Translations under genes and position numbers: made by a program
The notes under the pieces: generated by a model
What the model was told of the DNA's origin: nothing
Databases searched by the model: none
Seen by the model: the letters and a program-made list of their open reading frames with translations, nothing else
NCBI GenBank assembly: GCA_002748705.1
Contig: PDSZ01000034.1
Location: 1-64,000, forward strand
Reading direction: 5' to 3'
Length of the DNA: 64,000 bases
Source: Candidatus Fermentibacterota bacterium
GTDB taxonomy: Bacteria; Fermentibacterota; Fermentibacteria; Fermentibacterales; Fermentibacteraceae
Shown: positions 3,148 to 27,497 of the stretch, one piece after another
How the letters are laid out: every line of letters starts with the position of its first letter
Position numbering within the stretch: the stretch's first letter is position 1

Positions 3148-5451
3148 ATGGAAAAACCTGCACTGAATATTGCTGTGGTAGGTAACCCCAATGTGGGAAA
3201 GACCACCCTTCTAAACGCTCTTACCGGTTCAAAACAAAGGGTCGGCAACTGGCCCGGAGTTACTGTCGAAAAGCTGGAAGGTTCATACAGATACAAAGAA
3301 AACCTGATTGAAGTTACTGATCTTCCAGGTATTTACTCTTTCACTGCTTTTTCTCTGGATGAAGCTATCGCCAGAAAGTACATCCTTGAAGAAAAACCGG
3401 ACCTGGTTGTTAACATTGTTGATGCCTGCAACCTGGAACGAAACCTTTTCCTCACCACTCAGCTGCTTGAGATGAAGGTACCTGTCATAGTTGCGCTGAA
3501 CATGATGGACCTGGCTGAAAAACGCAGACTGGGCATTGATATCAATCACCTTTCTGAACACCTTGGATGCCCTGTGGTACCTGTTACTGCTTCAAAGGAA
3601 AAAGGTGTTGAGAACCTGAAAGATGTTATTTTTAAAGCAGGCAAAGAGAGAAATATTTCTCCTGCTTCTGTAAGTTACGATGAGATACTTGAAAACGCAG
3701 TAAAAAGAATAGAAAATGAAATCAAAACTGTTGCTCAGGAGAAGAAGGTAGATGCAAGGTGGCTTGCTCTCAGGCTCCTGGAAGGTGATGAGTACGCAAA
3801 AGAACTGTGTGCAGGCAGTTTGCCTGAGAAAGCGCTTTCAGAAGAGATATCTACAGTTGAGAAACATACAGGAGATGAGATAGACATGGTGCTTGCCGAC
3901 GGCAGGTACGGTTTCATTCACGGTCTTACGAAAGATGTGGTGAACAGAAAGCATGAAGTGCGCAGAACTGTATCAGACAAGCTGGACAGCTTTGTTCTCA
4001 ACAGGTTCCTGGGCATTCCCCTCTTTCTGGGTATCATGTACCTTGTGTTCGTAGGAACCATTAATTTCTCCGGTCCCTTCATTGACTTCTTCGACATCTT
4101 CACCGGTACCATCTTTGTTGACGGCTTCGGAGTTCTTCTAGCCTCCATTGGCGCGCCTGATCTGGTAATAACCTTCCTGGCCGACGGTATCGGCGGAGGT
4201 ATTCAGACTGTTGCCACCTTCATTCCGCCTATTTTCATGATCTTTCTCTTCCTCTCTATACTTGAGGACTCAGGATACATGGCAAGGGCGGCTTTCGTAA
4301 TGGACAGATTCCTCAGAACCGTAGGACTTCCAGGGAAGGCCTTCATTCCCATGCTTGTAGGATTCGGATGCAATGTGCCGGCGATAATGGCAACAAGAAC
4401 CCTTGAGAACAACAGAGACAGAATGCTCACCATAATGATGAACCCCTTCATGTCCTGCGGAGCACGGCTTCCTGTATACGCCCTTTTCGTGGCGGTGTTC
4501 TTTCCGCAGAGCGGTGGAACAATTCTCTTCAGCCTCTATGCGGCAGGCATACTCCTTGCAGTTCTCACCGGCCTTCTCTTCAAGAAGACCATGCTGAAAG
4601 GTGAGGCATCCACATTCGTCATGGAGCTTCCCCCCTATCACATGCCCACATTCAAGGGAATAATGTACCACACCATGACCAGGCTCAAGAGTTTCATTTT
4701 CAGGGCAGGTCTGGTGATAGTTATGGTGGTTATCGTACTCAGTTTCCTGAATTCAATCGGCACCGACGGCTCATTCGGTAATCAGGACTCTGAGAACTCA
4801 GTTCTATCTGCGATAGGCAAGGCTGTGGTTCCTGTTTTCACGCCTATGGGCATAGAGGAAAACAACTGGCCTGCTGCCGTTGGGCTCTTTACTGGAATCT
4901 TCGCAAAGGAAGCTGTTGTGGGAACACTGGACAACCTCTACACCACAATGGTTGATATTCCTGAAGAAGAAGCTGAAGAAGAAGGCTTTGATTTCCTCGG
5001 AGGAATATCCGAATCATTCACAGCTGTCAAAGACGGTTTCGCTGATTTCGGAAGCTCCCTGAGTGACCCTGCGGGAACAGGTATTACGGCAGATCTGGAA
5101 GATGCGGAAACTGCAGCTGAAGCTGTGGAGGTAAACCTTACCACATTCGATGTGATGAGAAGCAGATTCAATGGTAATACCAGCGCTTACGCCTACCTTC
5201 TCTTTATTCTGATCTACGCTCCCTGTGTTGCTGCCATTGCTGCCATTTACAGGGAAACCAACCTGGGATGGACCATACTTGCCACCGTATACCTCACACT
5301 GCTGGCATGGATAATCAGTACCCTCTTCTACAACATTGCCAATTTCGGTGCAGGCACTTCGGTAATGTGGGTTGCAGTTTCGCTGATTATGCTTGTTCTG
5401 ATGTTCTGGTCAATGAAGATCATGGGCCACAAAAAGACACTTAAGGTCTGA
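3148..5451 (+). CDS. feoB: Ferrous iron transport protein B
   Basis: A 767-residue FeoB, the GTP-dependent inner-membrane Fe(II) importer. The N-terminal G domain shows GNPNVGKTT (G1, residues about 11-19), DLPGIYS (G3), NMMD (G4) and VTASKEKGV near G5. A GDI-like linker follows, then the membrane part with both Gate motifs, including GFGCNVPAIMATRTLENN and MNPFMSCGARLPVYALF, and a C-terminal helix pair. An acidic insert (about residues 610-680) sits before the last membrane segments. ATG 3148 with GGAGAAG upstream is preferred to the TTG at 3130, which would overlap feoA. Full length for the family. Confidence 0.96.
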   Translation: MEKPALNIAVVGNPNVGKTTLLNALTGSKQRVGNWPGVTVEKLEGSYRYKENLIEVTDLPGIYSFTAFSLDEAIARKYILEEKPDLVVNIVDACNLERNLFLTTQLLEMKVPVIVALNMMDLAEKRRLGIDINHLSEHLGCPVVPVTASKEKGVENLKDVIFKAGKERNISPASVSYDEILENAVKRIENEIKTVAQEKKVDARWLALRLLEGDEYAKELCAGSLPEKALSEEISTVEKHTGDEIDMVLADGRYGFIHGLTKDVVNRKHEVRRTVSDKLDSFVLNRFLGIPLFLGIMYLVFVGTINFSGPFIDFFDIFTGTIFVDGFGVLLASIGAPDLVITFLADGIGGGIQTVATFIPPIFMIFLFLSILEDSGYMARAAFVMDRFLRTVGLPGKAFIPMLVGFGCNVPAIMATRTLENNRDRMLTIMMNPFMSCGARLPVYALFVAVFFPQSGGTILFSLYAAGILLAVLTGLLFKKTMLKGEASTFVMELPPYHMPTFKGIMYHTMTRLKSFIFRAGLVIVMVVIVLSFLNSIGTDGSFGNQDSENSVLSAIGKAVVPVFTPMGIEENNWPAAVGLFTGIFAKEAVVGTLDNLYTTMVDIPEEEAEEEGFDFLGGISESFTAVKDGFADFGSSLSDPAGTGITADLEDAETAAEAVEVNLTTFDVMRSRFNGNTSAYAYLLFILIYAPCVAAIAAIYRETNLGWTILATVYLTLLAWIISTLFYNIANFGAGTSVMWVAVSLIMLVLMFWSMKIMGHKKTLKV

Positions 5452-8520: not shown

Positions 8521-9125
8521 TTGCGAACATCCCTATTCATAATTATCTTTTTTACATTATTAATTTTCGGACATCCGCACATGTTCATAGACACTGAGAT
8601 GGCTGTATTACTTTCAGGTTCAACTCTTGCGGGGCTTGAGATAACTTGGTATTTTGATTCGATGTTCACTGCTGCCATCACAACAGACTTTGACTGTGAC
8701 AGAAACGGCGTATTCTCTCCTGCTGAAACTGAACAGGTGTTTCAGAATGCATTCTCCAACCTTGAGAGTTCTGACTATTTTTGTTGATGTAAATGGAACC
8801 ACTCTCTCCTTCAGGCATCAGGCACCGAAGAATTCCAGGTGTATATGGAAAACGGAACCATGGTGTACAGATTCTTCTACCCCTTCAATGTAGAGGTGCA
8901 TAACGGCACATTCAAAGTAGCCATCTACGACAGTACATTTTATTGTGATATCCTTTACAGGGAAGGTAACCCGATAAGTATTTCAGGTTCAGATACAGCC
9001 ACCTGCGAAATAGTTCAGAACAGCGATGTGGAAATCCCCTACTGAGGTGAGGTTTCAGTTGCCAGAGAAGGAGCGAGCTACTCCGGCACAGAATACCCCC
9101 AGCAGCTTGTGGTCTACCTGAATTG
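8521..9125 (+). pseudogene. DUF1007-family protein, frameshifted (Ni/Co transporter partner)
   Basis: TTG 8521 with AGGAG upstream starts a signal peptide followed by GHPHMFIDTEMAVLL, the hallmark N-terminus of DUF1007 periplasmic proteins that accompany NicO-type nickel/cobalt permeases. The frame stops at 8787. The expected sequence (FVDVNGTTLSFRHQA) continues in the next frame, as though one T were extra in the T5 run near 8779, and returns to the first frame by about 8830 (EEFQVYMENGTMVYRFFYPF). An in-frame TGA at 9043-9045 then precedes a further coherent stretch ending at 9125, just where NicO begins. Two compensating shifts and a stop make this a pseudogene or an assembly-error hotspot. 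Confidence 0.7.
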
Positions 9126-9925
9126 ATAAGAATCATACTGCTGCTATTCTCGGCACTCTGTTTTGCCCGGAACAATCCGTTTCTTACCGGGCAGGGTGAG
9201 GCGAAGCTATCCCCTGTTCAACCGGACAACTCATTGTGGTACAGTTTGTCATCAAGAAGTACTAACCTCCAGCGGGAAATGCAAAATGCAATAGCAGGAG
9301 CAATGAACGGCAGCAGTCTTCACATACTTCTGGGAGCATCATTTCTCTTTGGTCTGCTCCATGCGCTGGGGCCCGGGCACAGAAAGGGAATCCTCATTAC
9401 CTATTTTCTCGGCGAAGGGTACGCACCTGTTAAAGGAATGGCAGCAGTCCATGCCCTGAGTGCAGTACTCCTTGTGGGCGGTTTTTTCTTTCTTACCACA
9501 AGACCACTCTCCACTTCTGTGAACACCACACACAACATCCTTATGATGATAACATGGGCGTTAATACTGGCAATCGGCATATGGATGCTTCTCTCTGGAC
9601 TAAGACATTCCCAAAGTGGTAAGAGTAAGGGATTCAAAGCCCTTATAGCTTCAGGTGCAGTTCCATGCCCTGGCGCATCTGCAATAATGATTCTTGCTGT
9701 ATTCCAAAAAGCTTATGTTGCAGGAATGATCTCTGTGCTGGCAATGTCGCAGGAATGGGTGTTCTTCTGGCAGTAACAGGGCTTATTGCTGTTTTATTCA
9801 GAAGTACCATGAAGAAAATACTCAAAGACCCCCACAAAGGAGAAAAACTGGAGAAGTTTCTTCACATACTCTCTGGAGGAGCCATGATGATCTTTGCTGC
9901 CTTTATGCTGGCAGGGGTCATCTGA
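9123..9925 (+). pseudogene. NicO/RcnA-like nickel-cobalt permease, frameshifted
   Basis: Starts at TTG 9123, overlapping the end of the DUF1007 frame. It shows several membrane segments and the NicO signatures LLGASFLFGLLHALGPGHRKG (split here to its parts: HALGPGHRKG carries the metal-binding H-x7-H type motif) and GAVPCPGASAIMIL. At about 9748 the frame is lost: MSVLAMS-AGMGVLLAVTG would be continuous if one G were added in ATGTCGCAGGA. The second frame runs to TGA 9925 with the remaining membrane helices. A single-base deletion is the simplest explanation. Family members export or import Ni/Co; cobalt is needed for the cobalamin theme downstream. Confidence 0.75.
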
Positions 9926-9944
9926 ACACAGTCAAATTCTGCTA

Positions 9945-10092
9945 TATTCGGGTGTCTCTCAGATAAGGGAATCCGGTGAAAATCCGGAACTGTCCCGCAG
10001 CGGTAAACGGGAACGAAAACCTTACTACGACACTGAAGGGTAATCTTCGGGAAGTCAAGGTGATTAGGCAACAGCGCCCGTAAGTCCGAATA
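9945..10092 (+). promoter_or_regulatory. Cobalamin (B12) riboswitch aptamer
   Basis: The core GGTGAAAATCC, then CTGTCCCGCAGCGGTAA, and the 3' segment GCCCGTAAGTCCGAATACC are the conserved blocks of cobalamin riboswitches. P1 is closed by TATTCGG (9945-9951) pairing perfectly with CCGAATA (10086-10092). The B12-box side (AAGTCAAGGTGATTAGGCAA) is present at about 10052-10071. It lies in the leader of the secreted beta-helix gene at 10176, so intracellular cobalamin should switch off that gene and the propeller gene behind it. Confidence 0.93.
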
Positions 10093-10168
10093 CCTTCTGA
10101 GAGAACCGTAAAGGATATTCCTTTCGGATTCTTCATTAATCGGGCGGGTAACCCGAATACTGAAAGGG
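10093..10168 (+). promoter_or_regulatory. Riboswitch expression platform with competing pairing
   Basis: ACCCGAATA at 10151-10159 is perfectly complementary to TATTCGGGT at 9945-9953, the same strand that closes P1. The two pairings exclude each other. The downstream partner ends just before the ribosome binding site AAAGGGG (10162-10168). A small hairpin CGGG-TAA-CCCG (10145-10155) and a bulged hairpin at 10103-10131 are further elements. No U tract follows, so control of translation initiation is more likely than termination. Confidence 0.6.
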
Positions 10169-10175
10169 GTGCAAA

Positions 10176-11579
10176 ATGCGCCTTGTCATCCTGCTGCTCT
10201 CTGCAGCAGCACTGAACTATGCGGCGATAATTACAGTTCCGGAAGACTACTCACAAATACAGTCTGCAATTGATGCTGCAGCAGCTGGAGATACTGTACT
10301 GGTATCACCGGGAACCTACAACGAAAACATCAATTTCTCAGGAAAATCTGTAGTTGTTGCCAGTACAGACGGTCCGGAAACAACCATAATTGATGCACAA
10401 GGTTCAGGAAGTGTAGTCCGGTTCACATCCTCTGAAACAAGAGATGCTGTTCTTAACGGATTTACACTTCAGAACGGAACCGGAACATTAATCTCACCTT
10501 ACTACTACGGCGGAGGTATCAACTGTACCGGTTCATCTCCCACCATTACCAACAACATCATCAGGCAGAACACTGGATTCCACGGAGGCGGAATACTCTG
10601 CTACCTTGGCGGCAACCCTCTTATAGAATTCAACATCGTTGAAAACAACACAGCTGAACACTTCGGCGCCGGAATCTATATTTCCAGCTCATCTGCAGAG
10701 ATAAGAGCAAATGTTATCAGGAACAATTCCTGCAGCACAGGTGCAGGAATCACATCTGCATACAACTCCCCCTGCACAGCAGAAAACAACCTTTTGTACG
10801 GTAATGAAGCAGGCAAAGGCGGTGCTATCGCCGGCATTATCGGTGGTACCATAACTGCAGACAACTGCACAGTTGCTAACAACACCGGTACAACATCATC
10901 AGGAGGACTATACGGTTACAACTCCAATATCACAGTTACAAACTCCATCTTCTGGGGCAACACCGCACCGGCAGGGGCACAGTGTAACCTGTACAACGGC
11001 ACAGGCACTTTCACCTGGTCTGACTTTCAGGGCGGTGAAACTGCAGTGCTTTTGGAAGGCTCTGCAACACTTTCCTGGGGAGACGGAATGATTGATGAAG
11101 ATCCCCTCTTCGAAAATGGAGGCCTCAGCGCCTATCATCTGGGCACAGGTTCACCGTGCATAGATGGCGGCAACCCGTCAGCTTCCTGCAATGACACAGA
11201 GGCCCCGGCGAACCCTGGCAATCCCCTCTGGCCTGCTCTGGGAACACTAATCTGTGATATGGGTGTATACGGGGGCAACATATTTGGCGGATGGGTCGAA
11301 GTGGCAGACTTCACAGAAGAAGTTTCTGAACATGTTGTAGCCGTTGATGCAATTGAAAATCCTGTTGAGGGTTTTGCTTATCTGAACTGCAGTTTTCCGG
11401 AAAACTCCCAGGCATCGCTAAAACTGTACAATGCTTCCGGAAGACTGGTTGGATCTGAACCGGTTTACGCCCCTGGCACTGTCATACTCAGCACATCAGA
11501 ACTGCCGTCAGGAATTCACTTTGTAAAACTGGAAACTACTGCGGGATTTTCAACAGCCAGACTTATGGTTCTGAACTGA
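10176..11579 (+). CDS. Secreted right-handed parallel beta-helix protein with T9SS sorting domain
   Basis: A 467-residue protein. Residues 1-17 are a signal peptide. Residues about 20-330 are parallel beta-helix coils of the NosD/DUF1565 type: it opens with ITVPEDYSQIQSAIDAAAAG, then PGTYNENINFSG, followed by repeated Asn-rich turns (NNIIRQNTGFHGGGI, NIVENNTAEHFGAGI). The C-terminal about 80 residues form a T9SS type A sorting domain (LYNASGRLV, LPSGIHFVKLE), so the mature protein should be cell-surface attached or released. It is the first gene behind the cobalamin riboswitch, with AAAGGGG before ATG 10176. Control by B12 suggests a role in corrinoid acquisition, although most relatives of this fold bind or cleave polysaccharides. 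Confidence 0.88.
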   Translation: MRLVILLLSAAALNYAAIITVPEDYSQIQSAIDAAAAGDTVLVSPGTYNENINFSGKSVVVASTDGPETTIIDAQGSGSVVRFTSSETRDAVLNGFTLQNGTGTLISPYYYGGGINCTGSSPTITNNIIRQNTGFHGGGILCYLGGNPLIEFNIVENNTAEHFGAGIYISSSSAEIRANVIRNNSCSTGAGITSAYNSPCTAENNLLYGNEAGKGGAIAGIIGGTITADNCTVANNTGTTSSGGLYGYNSNITVTNSIFWGNTAPAGAQCNLYNGTGTFTWSDFQGGETAVLLEGSATLSWGDGMIDEDPLFENGGLSAYHLGTGSPCIDGGNPSASCNDTEAPANPGNPLWPALGTLICDMGVYGGNIFGGWVEVADFTEEVSEHVVAVDAIENPVEGFAYLNCSFPENSQASLKLYNASGRLVGSEPVYAPGTVILSTSELPSGIHFVKLETTAGFSTARLMVLN

Positions 11580-11589
11580 AAGGCTTGAA

Positions 11590-12786
11590 ATGATAAAAAC
11601 AGCACTGATTACAATGCTTATGCTGTATGCTCCTAAACTGCTGGTTCTCTCCACAACCAACAATGTTACCTGTATTGATACTGAAACAGGCACTGTAACA
11701 CCTGATGTGGTAACACCAGGGCAGTGGCCCAACGATATTCTATGGTTTCAGGAACACTTTTATGTGGTCAATTCAGGCAGTGATGACTGCACCCTTCAGA
11801 AGATAGACCCTGAAACCTGGCAGGTGGAAATACTTGGAATCGGTTCCGGCTATAACTGCTGGGCTGTGGAGCATGTCAAGGGGGATACGCTGGCAGTCTC
11901 ATCTGCAGTAAATAACTCCATTATTCTGGTAAACGCTTCCACTATGACAATCATTGGAGAAATAACAGGAGTCGGCCCCAACCCTGAATGGTTTGCAGTG
12001 GTTGGTGACAGTATATACGCAGCCTGCGGCGGATGGATGTCCAGTGACAAGGTGGTAGTGGCCGACCTGAACACGATGCTGCCGGTGGACACTATTACAA
12101 CCTTTACCAACACACAGGGCTGCACATGGGACGGTGTAGATCAGGTATATGCAATTTGCACAGGTTCCTACACTGCAAATGATGGAGAAATCCATGTTAT
12201 CGAAACTGCTACAGGAACAGTATCAAATGTGATACAAACCGGATTCGCTCCTGCCTTTGGCGTAATGCGGGGAGATCTGCTTTATGTAGGAGATGTCTAC
12301 GGGCAGGGAGTTATCAGCATCAACACAGTTACTGCAACCCTGGAAGAAGCTTCCCAGTATCCTGGAGGTTCAGGGCTCTCTGTTGATGAAAACAACATCC
12401 TCTGGGTGGCGAACTACCATGATGGAACAGTAAAAGGATACGACGAGAATCACGCTGAGGTTGCAGGCTATTCAGGAATATCCAGCTGCATGGCTCTTGA
12501 AGCATCCAGATCAGCAGGAAGCTCAGTTGAAGGTGACTGCTTCATTCCTGTAAATCCCCATGCAGGAATCTCAGCTTTCCCATCACCTGCTTCCTCTGTG
12601 GTTCAGGTTGCACTTCCTCCGGCCAACAGCAGCACTCCGGCTCTTTACAGCCTTTCAGGACGAAGAATATGTGCAGCTGCAGGCAGTTCAGGAGACTTAT
12701 GGACATTTGATGTCTCCACAATTCCACAAGGTATATACCTGATAAGAGCAGGTAAAGCTTCCTGCAGAATCTCAGTGGTTCGCTGA
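11590..12786 (+). CDS. YncE/BtuG-like secreted beta-propeller with T9SS sorting domain
   Basis: A 398-residue protein 10 bases behind the beta-helix gene and so in the riboswitch-controlled operon. After the signal peptide come about seven repeats of the YVTN/DUF5074 type (LVLSTTNNVTCIDTETG, YVVNSGSDDCTLQKIDPETW, VSSAVNNSIILVNASTM, DSIYAACGG, DNVLWVANYHDG-like). The C-terminal about 75 residues are a T9SS sorting domain (LYSLSGRRI, IPQGIYLIRAG). The architecture recalls BtuG of Bacteroides, a surface beta-propeller that captures cobalamin tightly and passes it to BtuB. Riboswitch control fits that role. The link to BtuG is an inference from fold and context, not a proven homology. Confidence 0.85.
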   Translation: MIKTALITMLMLYAPKLLVLSTTNNVTCIDTETGTVTPDVVTPGQWPNDILWFQEHFYVVNSGSDDCTLQKIDPETWQVEILGIGSGYNCWAVEHVKGDTLAVSSAVNNSIILVNASTMTIIGEITGVGPNPEWFAVVGDSIYAACGGWMSSDKVVVADLNTMLPVDTITTFTNTQGCTWDGVDQVYAICTGSYTANDGEIHVIETATGTVSNVIQTGFAPAFGVMRGDLLYVGDVYGQGVISINTVTATLEEASQYPGGSGLSVDENNILWVANYHDGTVKGYDENHAEVAGYSGISSCMALEASRSAGSSVEGDCFIPVNPHAGISAFPSPASSVVQVALPPANSSTPALYSLSGRRICAAAGSSGDLWTFDVSTIPQGIYLIRAGKASCRISVVR

Positions 12787-12796
12787 AACAGTAAAC

Positions 12797-12832
12797 TTCC
12801 AGAGGCGCACATTAACCTGTGCGCCTCTGGAA
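12797..12832 (+). terminator. Strong hairpin terminator after the riboswitch operon
   Basis: TTCCAGAGGCGCAC (12797-12810) pairs perfectly with GTGCGCCTCTGGAA (12819-12832) around an 8-base loop, 10 bases after the stop codon. There is no long T tract. Confidence 0.7.
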
Positions 12833-13093: not shown

Positions 13094-13381
13094 CCTGCTG
13101 TCAAGTATTCGGTTCACTTACCGGTAATGGCAATCAGGATTCAGGAACAGACCATTGCTTCTCAAGATCCTCAACATCATATTGATTACAAGAAAATTGA
13201 TAAGTGTGGAAATTGCGCTTTTTTACGAATCTGCCTTGGTGGCTGCAGGGGCGTTGCATATATGGAATCTGGGTCCTTAATGTCTAGACTAAACTCTTTT
13301 GCTTGTGCCCTCAGGAAAAGACGTATAAATACTATTATATATCGTCATACCTGTAAAGCATTGAAAAACAAATCCATATAG
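13094..13381 (+). pseudogene. SPASM-domain tail of a radical SAM peptide-modifying enzyme (truncated)
   Basis: The open frame starts after TAA 13091 without a proper gene start; an internal ATG at 13127 gives 84 residues. It contains KCGNCAFLRICLGGCR, a C-x2-C-x5-C-x3-C set followed by a distal Cys (NSFACALRKRR). This is the auxiliary Fe-S cluster SPASM domain that ends radical SAM enzymes maturing ribosomally made peptides. The N-terminal radical SAM barrel with CxxxCxxC is absent, so this is a remnant. The codon usage is AT-rich like the next two genes and unlike the flanking genes. Confidence 0.65.
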
Positions 13382-13389
13382 GAGTAATT

Positions 13390-13467
13390 ATGAATAAAGT
13401 TCTATATTTATGTATATATTTGTTATATATGTACATTATTAGGGTCGTTCGTTCTTATTATGATTGA
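13390..13467 (+). CDS. Possible 25-residue hydrophobic peptide gene
   Basis: ATG 13390 follows AGGAG at good spacing and encodes MNKVLYLCIYLLYMYIIRVV and six more residues. The stop overlaps the start of the beta-propeller gene at 13460, which suggests translational coupling. It could be a leader peptide or only spacer sequence. It does not look like a typical RiPP precursor. Confidence 0.25.
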   Translation: MNKVLYLCIYLLYMYIIRVVRSYYD

Positions 13468-14596
13468 TAAGAATATGCTGCATATTTTTAGTATATTGCT
13501 TTCGGCTTTATTGATATTTTTATTATTCTATTATAATATTTTAATGCCATCTGCTAATGTTTCGAACAACTGTGTGTGGCAGGATACTCTTCAAAAATGG
13601 GAACATTTTATGGAATCATCTTCTGATGGTTTATGGGAAGACTCATCTCAATACAATTTAAATATCACGAGACTTCATCATTTTGGCGGTGAAGATGATC
13701 CTAATCCGCAGTTTTATTATCCTGTATTCGTCAAGGTAGAAGGTGATACTATTTTTGTTACTGATGCTGCTCTTCAATCCCTTATTTGTATTGACTCTAC
13801 AGGTTCTGTTTTATGGACATTTGGTGAAGCAGGGGAAGGACCAGGTCATTTTGCTGGTATTGGACAGGTTGATGTGTGTGGAGATTATATTGCTGTCGTT
13901 AACAATGGATTATCAGCAATAGAGCTTTTACATAGAGATGGAACATATGTGCGCAGATTATCAATCGATAGGCCACAAGATGTATCTTTTGTTGACTCTA
14001 CACATATATTAGTATTTTCCAAGATTCATGATGGAGGTGATGTTCATTGTCTTGATATTAACACTGATAGCATACTATTTAGTTTTGGTTGCGAAGAGTG
14101 GGAGCAATGGCCTAATAGTGGCAGTGTTTACGAAATATATGGCCTTTACCTTGAACCTGCTACAGTAGTGTACCTATCTCATTTTGAGATGAAAATGTTT
14201 TTTGCAGATTTTGAAAATAGCCATTGTTTTTCAACTGAAATTCGTGAATTGCCTTTTAGCATTACTGAGCATGGACATTCATATGATGAAGATTCTAATA
14301 TGCGGTTTGATATTGCATATCCATTATATAGATCCATGTCGATTGGTCCTCATGGTGAAATAAATACTATATTTACTAATCTTATGAGTAATGGTGAAAT
14401 GTATGGACCTGGCAATAATAGTGATTATCCACCTGTAACAGTTATAGATAGATTTGATGTAAATGGCAATTATTTGGATTCATACTGTTTGCCAGATTCG
14501 TCAATTTGCATAATTGACTATAATGGCAATGGATATATGGTAGGAATACAAGCTCATACTGGTACTATATTTGGATACAGTATAGATACATTGTAG
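13460..14596 (+). CDS. Membrane-anchored six-bladed beta-propeller protein
   Basis: A 378-residue protein with an N-terminal hydrophobic anchor (about residues 8-28) and no lipobox. The rest forms NHL/BF3164-like blades: YPVFVKVEGDTIFVTDAAL, FGEAGEGPGHF, DVCGDYIAVVNNG. The GEGPG turn is shared with the lipoprotein at 34034. The gene is AT-rich and lies between a SPASM remnant and a truncated ABC exporter, an arrangement seen for peptide-modification clusters in Bacteroidetes-like genomes. Binding of a peptide or sugar is possible; the function is unknown. Confidence 0.7.
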   Translation: MIDKNMLHIFSILLSALLIFLLFYYNILMPSANVSNNCVWQDTLQKWEHFMESSSDGLWEDSSQYNLNITRLHHFGGEDDPNPQFYYPVFVKVEGDTIFVTDAALQSLICIDSTGSVLWTFGEAGEGPGHFAGIGQVDVCGDYIAVVNNGLSAIELLHRDGTYVRRLSIDRPQDVSFVDSTHILVFSKIHDGGDVHCLDINTDSILFSFGCEEWEQWPNSGSVYEIYGLYLEPATVVYLSHFEMKMFFADFENSHCFSTEIRELPFSITEHGHSYDEDSNMRFDIAYPLYRSMSIGPHGEINTIFTNLMSNGEMYGPGNNSDYPPVTVIDRFDVNGNYLDSYCLPDSSICIIDYNGNGYMVGIQAHTGTIFGYSIDTL

Positions 14597-14607
14597 GTTG
14601 CAATATT

Positions 14608-14904
14608 ATGCTTAATATTTATAAAATTCTCAATGTTTCACTCAATAAGAGTTCTAGGCGCGTTGTTCTATATTTATGTATAACTATAGTGCTTACGCTT
14701 GCATCTGTTTCAATTCCTATGATAACAAAGAATCTTGTTAACAATGGGATAGTTAATGGGTCAGAAGCTACAATTGTTTGGTCTGCTGTTTTCCTTGCAT
14801 CAATAGGTATTCTTAATCAATTTCTTATCTTATTCTCTAAATCTCTAGAAATATCAAGGTTTCACATTCTGTTTCTTTGTGTATTCAGAAATAATTTCGT
14901 CTGA
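14608..14904 (+). pseudogene. ABC exporter, N-terminal membrane fragment
   Basis: The frame encodes the first two to three membrane helices of an ABC-exporter transmembrane domain (LYLCITIVLTLASVSIPMITK, then LVNNGIVNG and SAVFLASIGILNQFLILFS). It stops at 14904, long before any nucleotide-binding domain, and the IS200-type element lies about 60 bases downstream. In context with the SPASM remnant it was probably the exporter of a modified peptide. Confidence 0.65.
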
Positions 14905-14994
14905 CAGTGAAATTTCAGCTGAATGTTCTGAAGTTAAAATCATTATATTTTGTGAAAATCAGTTAGTGTCTCTTCCGGGGATGGTGGAAACCCC

Positions 14995-15008
14995 TCGCCT
15001 TCAGGCGA
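14995..15008 (+). repeat. Left-end hairpin of the IS200-type element
   Basis: TCGCC and GGCGA form a 5-bp stem with loop TTCA, 22 bases before tnpA. In this family the transposase recognises such imperfect end hairpins. Confidence 0.6.
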
Positions 15009-15029
15009 AGCACATATTACATTTTCACA

Positions 15030-15470
15030 ATGAGAAACTATAGACTCGGTTCCCATACGAAGTTTGACCTCAAGGTCCACCTTGTCTGGATTCCGAAGTA
15101 TCGAAAGAAAGTTCTGGTTGGCGAGGTTGCACTTCGAGTGCGTGATCTCATCCGTCAGATAGCAATGGAACATGAGATACATGTCATATCAGGCGAGGTA
15201 GCCATTGACCATATCCACATACTGATTTCCTATCGACCGAATCATGATATCAGCAAGATAGTGCAGTGGCTTAAGGGGATAAGCTCCAGAGTCTTGCTAC
15301 AGGAGTTTCCTCATTTACGAAAGAAGTTCTGGGGCCGACACTTCTGGGCGCGTGGCTACCTTGCCGTAAGTACTGGCAACATCACCGACGAACTGATAAA
15401 GGCTTACATTGATGAACAGGAAGGTGAGCCCGTACAGGATGATAGTCGATTTCAAATCGACGGTTCATGA
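15030..15470 (+). CDS. tnpA: IS200/IS605 TnpA transposase (Y1 HUH)
   Basis: A 146-residue Y1 transposase. The HUH motif is DHIHILISYRP (residues about 60-70), and the catalytic tyrosine is in the helix near FWARGYLAVSTG (about residue 110) or slightly after. KFDLKVHLVWIPKYRKK is the typical N-terminal strand. Length is normal for the family and no tnpB is present. It appears intact, so the element may still be mobile. Confidence 0.95.
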   Translation: MRNYRLGSHTKFDLKVHLVWIPKYRKKVLVGEVALRVRDLIRQIAMEHEIHVISGEVAIDHIHILISYRPNHDISKIVQWLKGISSRVLLQEFPHLRKKFWGRHFWARGYLAVSTGNITDELIKAYIDEQEGEPVQDDSRFQIDGS

Positions 15471-24016: not shown

Positions 24017-25191
24017 TGGAACTGAAAAACTCAAGTCCCTTCAGAGTCTCCATTTCGGTAATTGCTGTCCTTCTTTTGGCGGTAATTCTGAGGCTGGGCG
24101 CTCCCATACTTGTAAAGATATCAATTGCACTCTTCTTTGCTTTGCTTATATCTCCTTCTGTCAGGTCCACCACCAGGAATGTAGACCGTCTTCTTCAAAA
24201 GCTGTTTAAACGCTATCGCAGGAGGGGAGACCGCAGCCAATCAAATCTTGCCAATGTGATAGGTACCTCTCTGGTGCTGGTTATGGCTCTTTTACTGATT
24301 TCCCTGTTTTTCTTCCTCATGTACGGAACTCTAAGCCTTCTGGTGAGCAGAAAAGACGATATGGTAAGCAATATCGTTCATCCTGTGGTGGAATTCGTTG
24401 AGAATGCTCAGAACCAATGGATTCCGGGAATGTATGACATGCTCGGTCTGGAGAATGTGGGAGAGGTAACTGCTGAAACCGATCGAATAATTGAAGGCAA
24501 AGAGGACTTTCAATCCCACAGACCGGTAGAAGAGGGATCCTTCCCGGTCGCATCAATAATTCCAACAGCAGCAGGACTGGTAGGTTCAGTAACAGGTTTC
24601 ATGATTAATACGGTTATCATAACAATGCTTACTGTTTTCATGGTGAACGGAAGAAGGCTCTTTGCCGAGAAGCTGCGAGATATGGATATGGAGGAGTATG
24701 CCAGATACCTGAAGGTAATCAGAGCTGTGGAGAATGTCCCCAGGAAGTACCTCATGGCAAAATTGACTACCAGTTCCCTTACAGGACTTCTTATAGGTGC
24801 AGGTCTTGTCATAATGGGTTTTCAGGTGGATGAAGCCTTCATCTGGTCCATAACTGCAATGGTTCTGAACTTCGTACCATTCTTCGGCTCAATTGTCGCC
24901 GGTGTAATGATCGCTCTCTATGTGATGAGTCTTGGCGGCTTTCAGCTTGGGCTTATTGCAGCGATTATGGTTACTGTTCTTAACAATGTTGTTTCCAATG
25001 TGATAGAACCAAATTATTTTGGAGATGTACTTCCCATAGGGAAGGTTACCATACTGCTCTGTGTGATAGTATGGGGCTATCTCTGGGGTGTGGTAGGGAT
25101 TTTCCTCGCCGTTCCTGTCACCATAATAATCAAGGTTCTTCTTGAGCAGACCACAGGCAGGAACGCCCTGGTCGCAGCAATGGAGGTATGA
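24016..25191 (+). CDS. AI-2E family transporter (PerM/YdiK-like permease)
   Basis: A 391-residue membrane protein with the family layout: two helix groups flanking a soluble segment (about residues 105-185), and the conserved C-terminal region MVLNFVPFFGSIVAG, NNVVSNVIEPNYFGD and WGYLWGVVGIFLAVPVT. GTG 24016 overlaps the nitrilase stop. Family members export AI-2 in E. coli or act as Na+/H+ antiporters in others, so the substrate is open. Confidence 0.9.
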   Translation: MELKNSSPFRVSISVIAVLLLAVILRLGAPILVKISIALFFALLISPSVRSTTRNVDRLLQKLFKRYRRRGDRSQSNLANVIGTSLVLVMALLLISLFFFLMYGTLSLLVSRKDDMVSNIVHPVVEFVENAQNQWIPGMYDMLGLENVGEVTAETDRIIEGKEDFQSHRPVEEGSFPVASIIPTAAGLVGSVTGFMINTVIITMLTVFMVNGRRLFAEKLRDMDMEEYARYLKVIRAVENVPRKYLMAKLTTSSLTGLLIGAGLVIMGFQVDEAFIWSITAMVLNFVPFFGSIVAGVMIALYVMSLGGFQLGLIAAIMVTVLNNVVSNVIEPNYFGDVLPIGKVTILLCVIVWGYLWGVVGIFLAVPVTIIIKVLLEQTTGRNALVAAMEV

Positions 25192-27497
25192 TGTTATTCC
25201 TGTTTCTTTTAGCAGCACTTACCGCTGGAACCGTTCAGCTTGACTGGACAGCGTCTTCAGAACCACAGGTTATCAGTGGTGTGCTTGGCGAGCGAATTGT
25301 TATGGAAGGGGCTGTTCCTTTCGGTAGCCCTGGTGACCCTGCTGTACCGGTTATACCGGTAACTGCAGCTATTCCTGCCGGAGCGGTAGTGGATGGTGTT
25401 GAAATCATCAGCTCTTCATGGGAAAGACTGGACATGAGTTTCAGGCCTATGGCTGTACAGAATGCTGCTCCCGTATCACGGCCTGAGGAGTTCACCATAA
25501 CTGTTCCCAACCCTGATGCCTTTTCCCGAAATATCAAAACTGAAGTACTCTTTTCAGGGCAGGGCACTCTCATGGGCTATCCTGTTGCTGATTTCCTTAT
25601 AAGACCTTTTGCCTGGGACCCGGTTACAGAGAACCTGACCTTTTCAAGATCAGTCAGCTTTGAGATTTCGTATCACCTTGAAGATCGGGCGGAGCAGATT
25701 CCCTCAAGGGGTATTGCAGGTTCTCAGGTAATTAGTCAAATCATGAACACAGCAGTACTCAATTCCGGCGACCTGCCGGTAGTGTCTGCTGCCACAGATC
25801 TTCCCTACGGCGAATACCTGATCATCGCCGACGACAATCTTGCTGCAGCCTTTGAACCATTGGCTCAAATGAAAACCTGGAAAGGTGTTCAGACTCAAAT
25901 AGTCACAATGTCATCAGTACTTTCAGGAGCTTCAGGAGTTGATAATGCCCAGAAGCTGAGAAACTTCCTCTTTGACATCTATCAGAATAATCCTCCTACA
26001 TACATTCTTCTTGCAGGCGACACTCCAGGTGTGCCTCACAGGAACTGCTACGCAACTGCGGAAGGATACACAGGGGATCCTTCAAGTGACCTGTACTATC
26101 AGGATATGAATGATACAGCCCCCGGCGTGGATGCCTGGAATCTGGATGGTGATAATCTCTGGGGAGAACTGAACGGTCAGGACAACATGGACTACCACCC
26201 TGATTATGTTCTGGGCAGGGCTTCTGTGGAAACAGCAGCTGAAGCTGAGACATTTGTAAACAAGGTACTGGTCTGGGAGGATGCACCGGATACCGATGAC
26301 TGGTACACCTCCATGGGGTTCACCACCGGTGTTCTCTGGAGCAGCCCGTACTGTCCCGGTTCTGCCGGCAAGGAGAAGGTGGACACTCTGTACACTCCTT
26401 CCACCTGGACTATTACCAAGCTTTATGATAGTGCAGGCACTCAGAGCTACACAGCGACAATGGCAATGCTCAACCAGGGCAGGCAGCTTGTGAACCACGC
26501 AGGACACGGCAGTGAAGACGGTGTTTCAATTGGAACCGGTTATCTGGACACAGACGATTTCATGGGGCTTACCAACATCTCGGTAAACGGCAGACCTACT
26601 ATCTGGAATACCATTGCCTGCCTTTCCGGTTCTTTCGATACAGGAACATGTTTTGCCGAGGCATGGATAAGGTCTCCAGGCGGCGGCGGTTTCTGCATAA
26701 TGAATACCCGCTACGGTTGGGGAGAGCCTGCGGAGCCTGGTGACCAGTGGAGTGAACTGGTGGACCAGGAGTTCTTCGCGAAGTTCTTCAATGAAGACAT
26801 GTACAATCTGGGAACGGCTTTCATGATGGCCAAGGACGAATTCATACCTCTGATTCCCTCAGACACCCATTACGACTGGATAGCCAAGAGCAATACCCTC
26901 TTCGGAGATCCTGAGCTTCCCATGTACACACAGGTTCCTGCAGAACTTCAGCTGACAGGTGTGGATGTTGTCCAGGGCATTCAGGAACTGACTGTTACAG
27001 TCACCTCTGAAGGATCACCTGTGGAAGGCGCACGAGTATGCCTTCTTCAGGGACAGTGGGATCAGCCTGTAACCTATGCAGTGGCCCTCACAGATCCTTC
27101 CGGAGCAGCAACTCTCACATGGACCGATCCTCTTCCTGCAAGCCCTGATCAGGTCAGAGTAACTGCATGGGCCAGGGATCATATAACCAGCACTGACCTT
27201 TACGATATAGGTTCAAACGGTGTTGAGGAGGAGCAGGGCTCACAGGTGCCGGCATTCACAGTGAACGCTTCCAATCCTGTAACTGGAACTGCATCCATAA
27301 GCTGGGAACTCCCGTCAGTACAGATAGCCTCCATTGACATAGTAGACCTTTCCGGAAGAACAGTTCACAGTTACCGGCTGCATGGCACTTCAGGCTCGTT
27401 CAGCTGGAATACTTCAGCTGACCCTGCAGGAGTCTACTTCATCAGAATGATAACTGATACAGGCAGCATTACCCGCCACATGGCAGTGGTGAGGTAG
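25188..27497 (+). CDS. Gingipain-like cysteine peptidase (C25) with T9SS sorting domain
   Basis: A 769-residue secreted protein. The signal peptide is residues 1-16, and a C25 propeptide-like region follows to about residue 190. The catalytic domain has the His in VNHAGHGSEDG (about 438) and the Cys in NTIACLSGSFD (about 478). YILLAGDTPGVPH and DYHPDYVLGRASVET are typical family segments. An Ig-like domain follows, then the T9SS type A tail (IDIVDLSGRTVHSY, DPAGVYFIRM). In this phylum such enzymes process surface proteins or digest extracellular protein. It supplies peptides consistent with the amino-acid fermentation genes nearby. The start overlaps the AI-2E gene. Confidence 0.92.
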   Translation: MMLFLFLLAALTAGTVQLDWTASSEPQVISGVLGERIVMEGAVPFGSPGDPAVPVIPVTAAIPAGAVVDGVEIISSSWERLDMSFRPMAVQNAAPVSRPEEFTITVPNPDAFSRNIKTEVLFSGQGTLMGYPVADFLIRPFAWDPVTENLTFSRSVSFEISYHLEDRAEQIPSRGIAGSQVISQIMNTAVLNSGDLPVVSAATDLPYGEYLIIADDNLAAAFEPLAQMKTWKGVQTQIVTMSSVLSGASGVDNAQKLRNFLFDIYQNNPPTYILLAGDTPGVPHRNCYATAEGYTGDPSSDLYYQDMNDTAPGVDAWNLDGDNLWGELNGQDNMDYHPDYVLGRASVETAAEAETFVNKVLVWEDAPDTDDWYTSMGFTTGVLWSSPYCPGSAGKEKVDTLYTPSTWTITKLYDSAGTQSYTATMAMLNQGRQLVNHAGHGSEDGVSIGTGYLDTDDFMGLTNISVNGRPTIWNTIACLSGSFDTGTCFAEAWIRSPGGGGFCIMNTRYGWGEPAEPGDQWSELVDQEFFAKFFNEDMYNLGTAFMMAKDEFIPLIPSDTHYDWIAKSNTLFGDPELPMYTQVPAELQLTGVDVVQGIQELTVTVTSEGSPVEGARVCLLQGQWDQPVTYAVALTDPSGAATLTWTDPLPASPDQVRVTAWARDHITSTDLYDIGSNGVEEEQGSQVPAFTVNASNPVTGTASISWELPSVQIASIDIVDLSGRTVHSYRLHGTSGSFSWNTSADPAGVYFIRMITDTGSITRHMAVVR

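Follow-up and report, generated by a model that had tools for sequence, protein, structure and literature searches.

The 64-kb window analyzed here (the whole stretch of 64,000 nucleotides, positions 1 to 64,000 of contig PDSZ01000034.1 from a Candidatus Fermentibacterota bacterium) contains, on its plus strand, a cobalamin riboswitch followed by two genes for secreted proteins, i.e. a right-handed beta-helix and a BtuG-like beta-propeller. With a probability of roughly 0.78, this operon makes, when corrinoid is short, a B12-repressed surface corrinoid catcher which is delivered by the type IX secretion system (T9SS) and is BtuG-like in its action. The propeller is very probably the T9SS-delivered surface catcher itself, its corrinoid binding being putative.

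Cobalamin riboswitches usually allow expression when cobalamin is low. The only one above the gathering threshold in the window, a match to RF00174 at 9943–10115 (+; 96.3 bits versus a gathering score of 31.5, E 9.4e-23), is of full length (model positions 1–189 of 189). An initial annotation, made from the sequence alone, had described a well-formed B12 riboswitch upstream of a two-gene operon; this is borne out by the complete match, with the start of the locus moved from 9945 to 9943. The aptamer ends 60 nucleotides (nt) before the start of the first gene (10176), and direct reading of the leader between them (10140–10169, +) revealed a short hairpin (10140–10144 pairing with 10152–10156) and then GAAAGGGG (10162–10169), a ribosome-binding, Shine-Dalgarno-like stretch. 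When the window riboswitch was aligned with 22 riboswitches of relatives, the nearest in type was that of the propeller of genome G001, the closest relative (57% identity), and G001 alone shared the window-type leader, composed of the hairpin and GAAAGGGGTG, for which a regulatory role is putative.

The open reading frames (ORFs) of the beta-helix (10176–11579, +; 467 amino acids) and the propeller (11590–12786, +; 398 amino acids) are co-oriented, with a stop-to-start spacing of 10 nt. In the second protein, the propeller occupies model residues about 15–310 and a T9SS-type tail residues 330–387, while its first cysteine (residue 28, in NVTC) does not lie within a lipobox, as read directly from the sequence.

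The genomic context of the propeller was examined in related bacteria. Its family is small: among 7995 candidates scored, drawn from 5.8 billion proteins, there were 6 matches, among them the protein itself and one distant protein, and the 19 pattern matches on viral contigs included no relatives. A scan of genome contigs yielded nine loci, labelled Candidatus Fermentibacteria, Fermentibacteraceae or Sabulitectum, all of which are preceded by a co-oriented RF00174 match (eight directly and one, locus L001 of G001, with a gap of 757 nt). In a census of the phylum (a sample of 42 Fermentibacteria genomes), 21 strong propeller matches (E < 1e-50) were identified in 20 genomes; below them stood the second piece of the G001 propeller, which is split over two overlapping frames (1.2e-33), and then a match at 5.2e-9. 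The recurrence behind B12 riboswitches that the initial annotation had proposed as a check was found for 20 of the 21 propellers, and the remaining one (G031) begins at a contig end. This count includes the propeller of G007, absent from the automatic locus tables and added from neighbour reading and the propeller search. Apart from G001, the propeller ORF starts at most 95 nt from the switch and is thus the first gene (19 of the 20 relatives' loci). In genomes of about 2–4 Mb, such an association was judged, without a formal test, to be far beyond chance.

The predicted structure of the propeller (mean pLDDT 82.5) was compared with known structures using Foldseek. Among 1518 matches (E 0.001), the archaeal surface-layer propeller 1l0q came out on top, followed at ranks 2–17 by chains of three BtuG proteins, in agreement with the BtuG-type fold proposed by the initial annotation. 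The VIA scores were 33.7 for 1l0q, 31.5 for BtuG1 and 30.7 for BtuG2, and some unrelated or designed propellers scored nearly as high (29–30.7). As a single sequence the window propeller gave no BtuG homology, and a profile was needed. This profile, A4, built from 13 sequences (12 of Fermentibacteria type plus P0006), matched chains of BtuG1, BtuG2 and BtuG3 along most of the propeller's length (E 2.8e-15 to 8.6e-13), with 1l0q ahead of BtuG (3.6e-23), designed Pizza propellers level with BtuG2 (8.5e-13) and Escherichia coli YncE at 7.9e-6 only (identities of entries 8BMX, 8BMY, 8OKV, 8BLW, 8P97 and 3DSM according to the available part of PMC10404256). With regard to the BtuG pocket, Trp194 of BtuG2, located as the Trp of NCWSYQNR in a BtuG3-BtuG2 alignment with checked numbering, aligns with W149 of the window propeller, a position occupied by Trp in 12 of 12 Fermentibacteria-type sequences and by Ala in P0006. 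Tyr239 possibly corresponds to Y194 (13 of 13), an uncertain equivalence as it falls within an alignment insert, and the Fermentibacteria propellers have retained neither Trp272 (Ala in BtuG3) nor Tyr316. The protein was not classed as a BtuG because it carries a T9SS-type tail instead of a lipobox cysteine and because no TonB receptor was found in the window or among the neighbours listed for loci L002–L009.

T9SS tails had been assigned to both proteins by the initial annotation. For the beta-helix (matching DUF1565, Por_Secre_tail and, weakly, NosD; type A tail at residues 395–465), the assignment holds with TIGR04183 (33.3 bits, cut-off 23; PF18962 25.3 bits, cut-off 27). The propeller tail, taken alone, is borderline, just below both cut-offs (22.9 bits for TIGR04183 and 20.7 bits for PF18962), while the tails of both orthologues scanned exceed the Pfam cut-off of 27 (31.4 and 37.0 bits). 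A matching machinery is present in the phylum, in which SprA was found above cut-off in 40 of the 42 genomes (and in none of 14 controls).

The initial annotation regarded the beta-helix as the partner of the propeller. This part was not upheld, since none of the 20 relatives' loci has a beta-helix between switch and propeller; the partner conserved in relatives is instead a jelly-roll protein, BtuH-like and about 265–275 amino acids long, located after the propeller in 19 of the 20 riboswitch-propeller loci (in some of them only the gene start is visible, where the flank ends) and directly behind a switch in two loci (G001 and G010). Its predicted fold is nearest to the B12-binding domain of BtuH/BtuG1, and some of the proteins scanned have a T9SS-type tail. 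By sequence, the profile of the partner matched only PDB chains with T9SS-type tails, and none of the three partner proteins scanned had a Pfam match to DUF4465 with E up to 1. A link to B12 through the Leptospira protein LIC_13355 was considered and dropped, as the NCBIfam match was weak (17–21.5 bits, cut-off 120); in the available part of PMC3953431 the Leptospira cobalamin switches are placed before genes other than LIC_13355, and that of PMC11891782 mentions neither cobalamin, B12 nor riboswitch. A possible propeller-jelly-roll fusion outside the phylum (P0206) is no more than a lead, its N-terminal match to the last blades reaching 18.4 bits only, with an hhalign probability of 2.4% and no PDB propeller. 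P0199, P0202 and P0205 look similar to P0206 by eye and have no propeller-blade match, and the other 15 partner homologues matching the propeller profile (among the 120 listed of 486) do so in the tail region only.

The beta-helix looks lineage-specific. No remnant of it was detected at E < 0.2 anywhere in L001 by tblastn, including the 757-nt gap of G001, where a 106-amino-acid Cys_rich_CWC ORF (PF14375, 50.7 bits; L001 9451–9768) is located between riboswitch and propeller. Because the window-type leader recurs in G001 with this ORF before the propeller, the first-gene slot may be old in the window/G001 sublineage, its content changing. Three homologues with 65% identity to the beta-helix (P0008–P0010) are found on contigs of 2.0–2.5 kb.

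The other cobalamin riboswitches of the phylum stand mostly before uptake-type or salvage genes. At E 0.001, RF00174 gave 61 matches in 39 of the 42 genomes, of which 51 (in 36 genomes) were above the gathering score. A T9SS propeller and/or its partner follows 22 of the 61 (20 with the propeller and 2 with the partner directly), a TonB receptor follows 32, a lipoprotein-type propeller on a short contig one, cobC/cobU-type genes two (L020 and L038, in G002 and G027), and three run off contig ends. The last one (L026 on contig C121 of G002, 83 bits) precedes a trpD-like gene (TIGR01245, 224 bits, cut-off 199), whose link to corrinoids is not evident. Of the switches without the T9SS propeller or its partner, 36 were testable, and 35 of them have genes of these kinds behind them. 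Receptors were called by blastp to three of these TonB-receptor proteins, and all eight receptor ORFs scanned with Pfam showed a Plug or barrel domain (E 0.001), with no match above the curated cut-off in two of them. The ten matches below the gathering score (L022, L023, L024, L028 and L104–L109; 23.8–28.1 bits versus 31.5) all precede TonB receptors and possibly represent a divergent cobalamin switch subtype.

Next after the TonB receptor, the lipoprotein-type propeller profile matched in 27 of the 28 testable loci of these 32 (missing in locus L122, contig C138 of G002), a count in which the matches in G007 and G039 are only partial and those in G012 and G014 lie, at the right distance, inside over-extended ORF calls. 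These loci (L092, L093, L094, L097, L099, L101, L102 and L105–L123, with L122 as the exception) have the order riboswitch, TonB receptor, lipoprotein propeller, which is a BtuB-BtuG-like order outside Bacteroidota. All 11 lipoprotein-type propellers that were aligned have the lipobox cysteine, and a loose lipobox pattern was missing from 4 of 27 automatic ORF calls. Lipoprotein-type and T9SS propellers are homologous (hhalign 99.4%, E 4.9e-22), and the profile of the former matches BtuG1 chains at E 4.2e-11, ranked after 1l0q. The absence of a TonB receptor noted in the initial annotation is true locally: a tblastn search of the window (E 1e-3), in which three TonB receptors and the jelly-roll partner of relatives served as queries, detected neither a receptor nor such a partner. 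It does not extend to whole genomes, as 15 of the 20 propeller genomes have a TonB-receptor locus behind another cobalamin riboswitch. This kind of receptor was unseen in G003, G005, G008, G025 and G026, but these genomes may be incomplete, so that its absence there means little.

Taken together, these data are consistent with the following course of events. At low intracellular cobalamin, the riboswitch would be unbound and the operon expressed, as is usual for such switches. N-terminal signals would take both proteins through the inner membrane, and the T9SS would then carry them through the outer membrane and swap their tails for a surface anchor, an export predicted from these tails and from the machinery present in the phylum. 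A corrinoid would then be bound on one face of the BtuG-like propeller, as its fold and its association with the riboswitch suggest, and passed to a TonB-dependent receptor that has a lipoprotein-type propeller of its own and is encoded in another part of the genome, behind a different cobalamin riboswitch, like the receptor loci found in relatives. The beta-helix would be a lineage-specific additional surface protein, perhaps a scaffold.

A bolder version, possible but less probable, is that T9SS-displayed or released BtuG-like propellers and BtuH-like jelly-rolls (here together with a beta-helix) form a receptor-free modular capture layer, which gathers corrinoids and later feeds the separate TonB receptor and lipoprotein propeller, somewhat like a stage of secreted siderophores, but for B12.

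Several observations also allow other readings. Since other propellers score near BtuG in VIA, the predicted fold alone is poorly discriminating, and the beta-helix is of a very common kind, with 2171 homologues at E 1e-3 and matches (some to the tail only) in every one of the 42 phylum genomes. Both facts would suit generic T9SS surface proteins, serving in adhesion or in the envelope, whose expression is tuned by cobalamin and which bind no corrinoid. This is unlikely in view of the small size of the propeller family, the cobalamin riboswitch before all 20 of its testable members in the surveyed phylum, the conserved partner, which is predicted to fold like a B12-binding domain, and the uptake-type or salvage genes behind nearly all other testable switches. 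Broken DUF1007 and NicO genes just upstream, and lactonase, metallochaperone and nitrous-oxide-reductase propellers among the structural matches, could point instead to a propeller that works on corrinoids or cobalt as an enzyme or chaperone (e.g. in precursor remodelling or metal hand-over). We consider this less likely still, because the DUF1007/NicO genes lie upstream of the switch and outside its control, the eight relatives read have other upstream genes, and the family scans gave no catalytic family above its cut-off. Finally, the window switch is followed first by the beta-helix gene, and yet it is very improbable that the beta-helix is the main corrinoid-related product with the propeller as a passenger, given that the propeller is kept behind the switch with no beta-helix before it in all 20 relatives' loci, and that the best ten listed beta-helix matches in the phylum are all on contigs without a riboswitch match.

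BtuG-type catchers have been described as confined to Bacteroidetes and as BtuB-bound lipoproteins. With BtuG1, BtuG2 and BtuG3 of Bacteroides thetaiotaomicron (PDB 8BMX, 8OKV, 8BLW and 3DSM), the window propeller has in common the propeller fold, cobalamin riboswitch control, predicted surface delivery and one pocket Trp position, and its relatives have a partner of BtuH-like fold (fused in BtuG1). It differs in having a C-terminal T9SS-type tail and no lipobox, in the lack of an adjacent TonB receptor and in its occurrence outside Bacteroidota; in the available part of PMC6143338, BtuG homologues are reported from Bacteroidetes only, among 313 gut genomes at the BlastP settings used there. 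From the TonB-receptor loci of its own phylum, which share the switch family and a homologous propeller, it differs in that their propeller bears a lipobox cysteine and stands beside the receptor. The jelly-roll partner, compared with the C-terminal domain of BtuH2 (PDB 7BIZ) or the BtuH domain of BtuG1, is shorter, with no room for the immunoglobulin-like domains of BtuH, and has a T9SS-type tail in some of the proteins scanned. BtuH and DUF4465 are described in the parts of PMC8941943 and PMC13398666 available, the latter presenting DUF4465 (BtuJ) as B12-binding jelly-roll proteins near TonB receptors and PF16819 (DUF5074) propellers; the partner resembles BtuJ as a jelly-roll of putative B12 binding and differs from it in having no DUF4465 match in the proteins scanned. 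In the openly licensed PMC literature, no paper was found on such a corrinoid system in this phylum or on the T9SS. If the corrinoid catcher is real, surface B12 capture would extend beyond Bacteroidota, with a different anchor and no fixed receptor. This suggests a broader and more diverse scavenging of B12 at cell surfaces than has been reported. A concrete, testable assignment would also be gained for hypothetical proteins of a phylum that is known chiefly through metagenomes.

The operon probably ends at a 15-pair palindromic hairpin (12797–12832) just 3' of the last stop codon; the scan called it on the minus strand, on which a T-rich stretch follows, so that termination on the plus strand is presumed. 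Directly upstream of the switch (8521–9925), the frames of the DUF1007 and NicO (nickel/cobalt transporter) genes are broken in several places, either by real decay or by sequencing error. Downstream (13127–15470), there are a SPASM-domain fragment, a 378-amino-acid ORF with a weak NHL-type match, an IS200-type transposase and a fragment with weak similarity to an ABC transporter of the NHLM bacteriocin-export type; together they may be what is left of a peptide-natural-product locus. Cyclic di-GMP-I (c-di-GMP-I) riboswitches were observed near two of the relatives' propeller loci (two in tandem at 3689–3870 of L006, and one at 4169–4253 of L009). Elsewhere in the window, a peptidase family C25 protein with a T9SS tail is encoded at 25188–27494.
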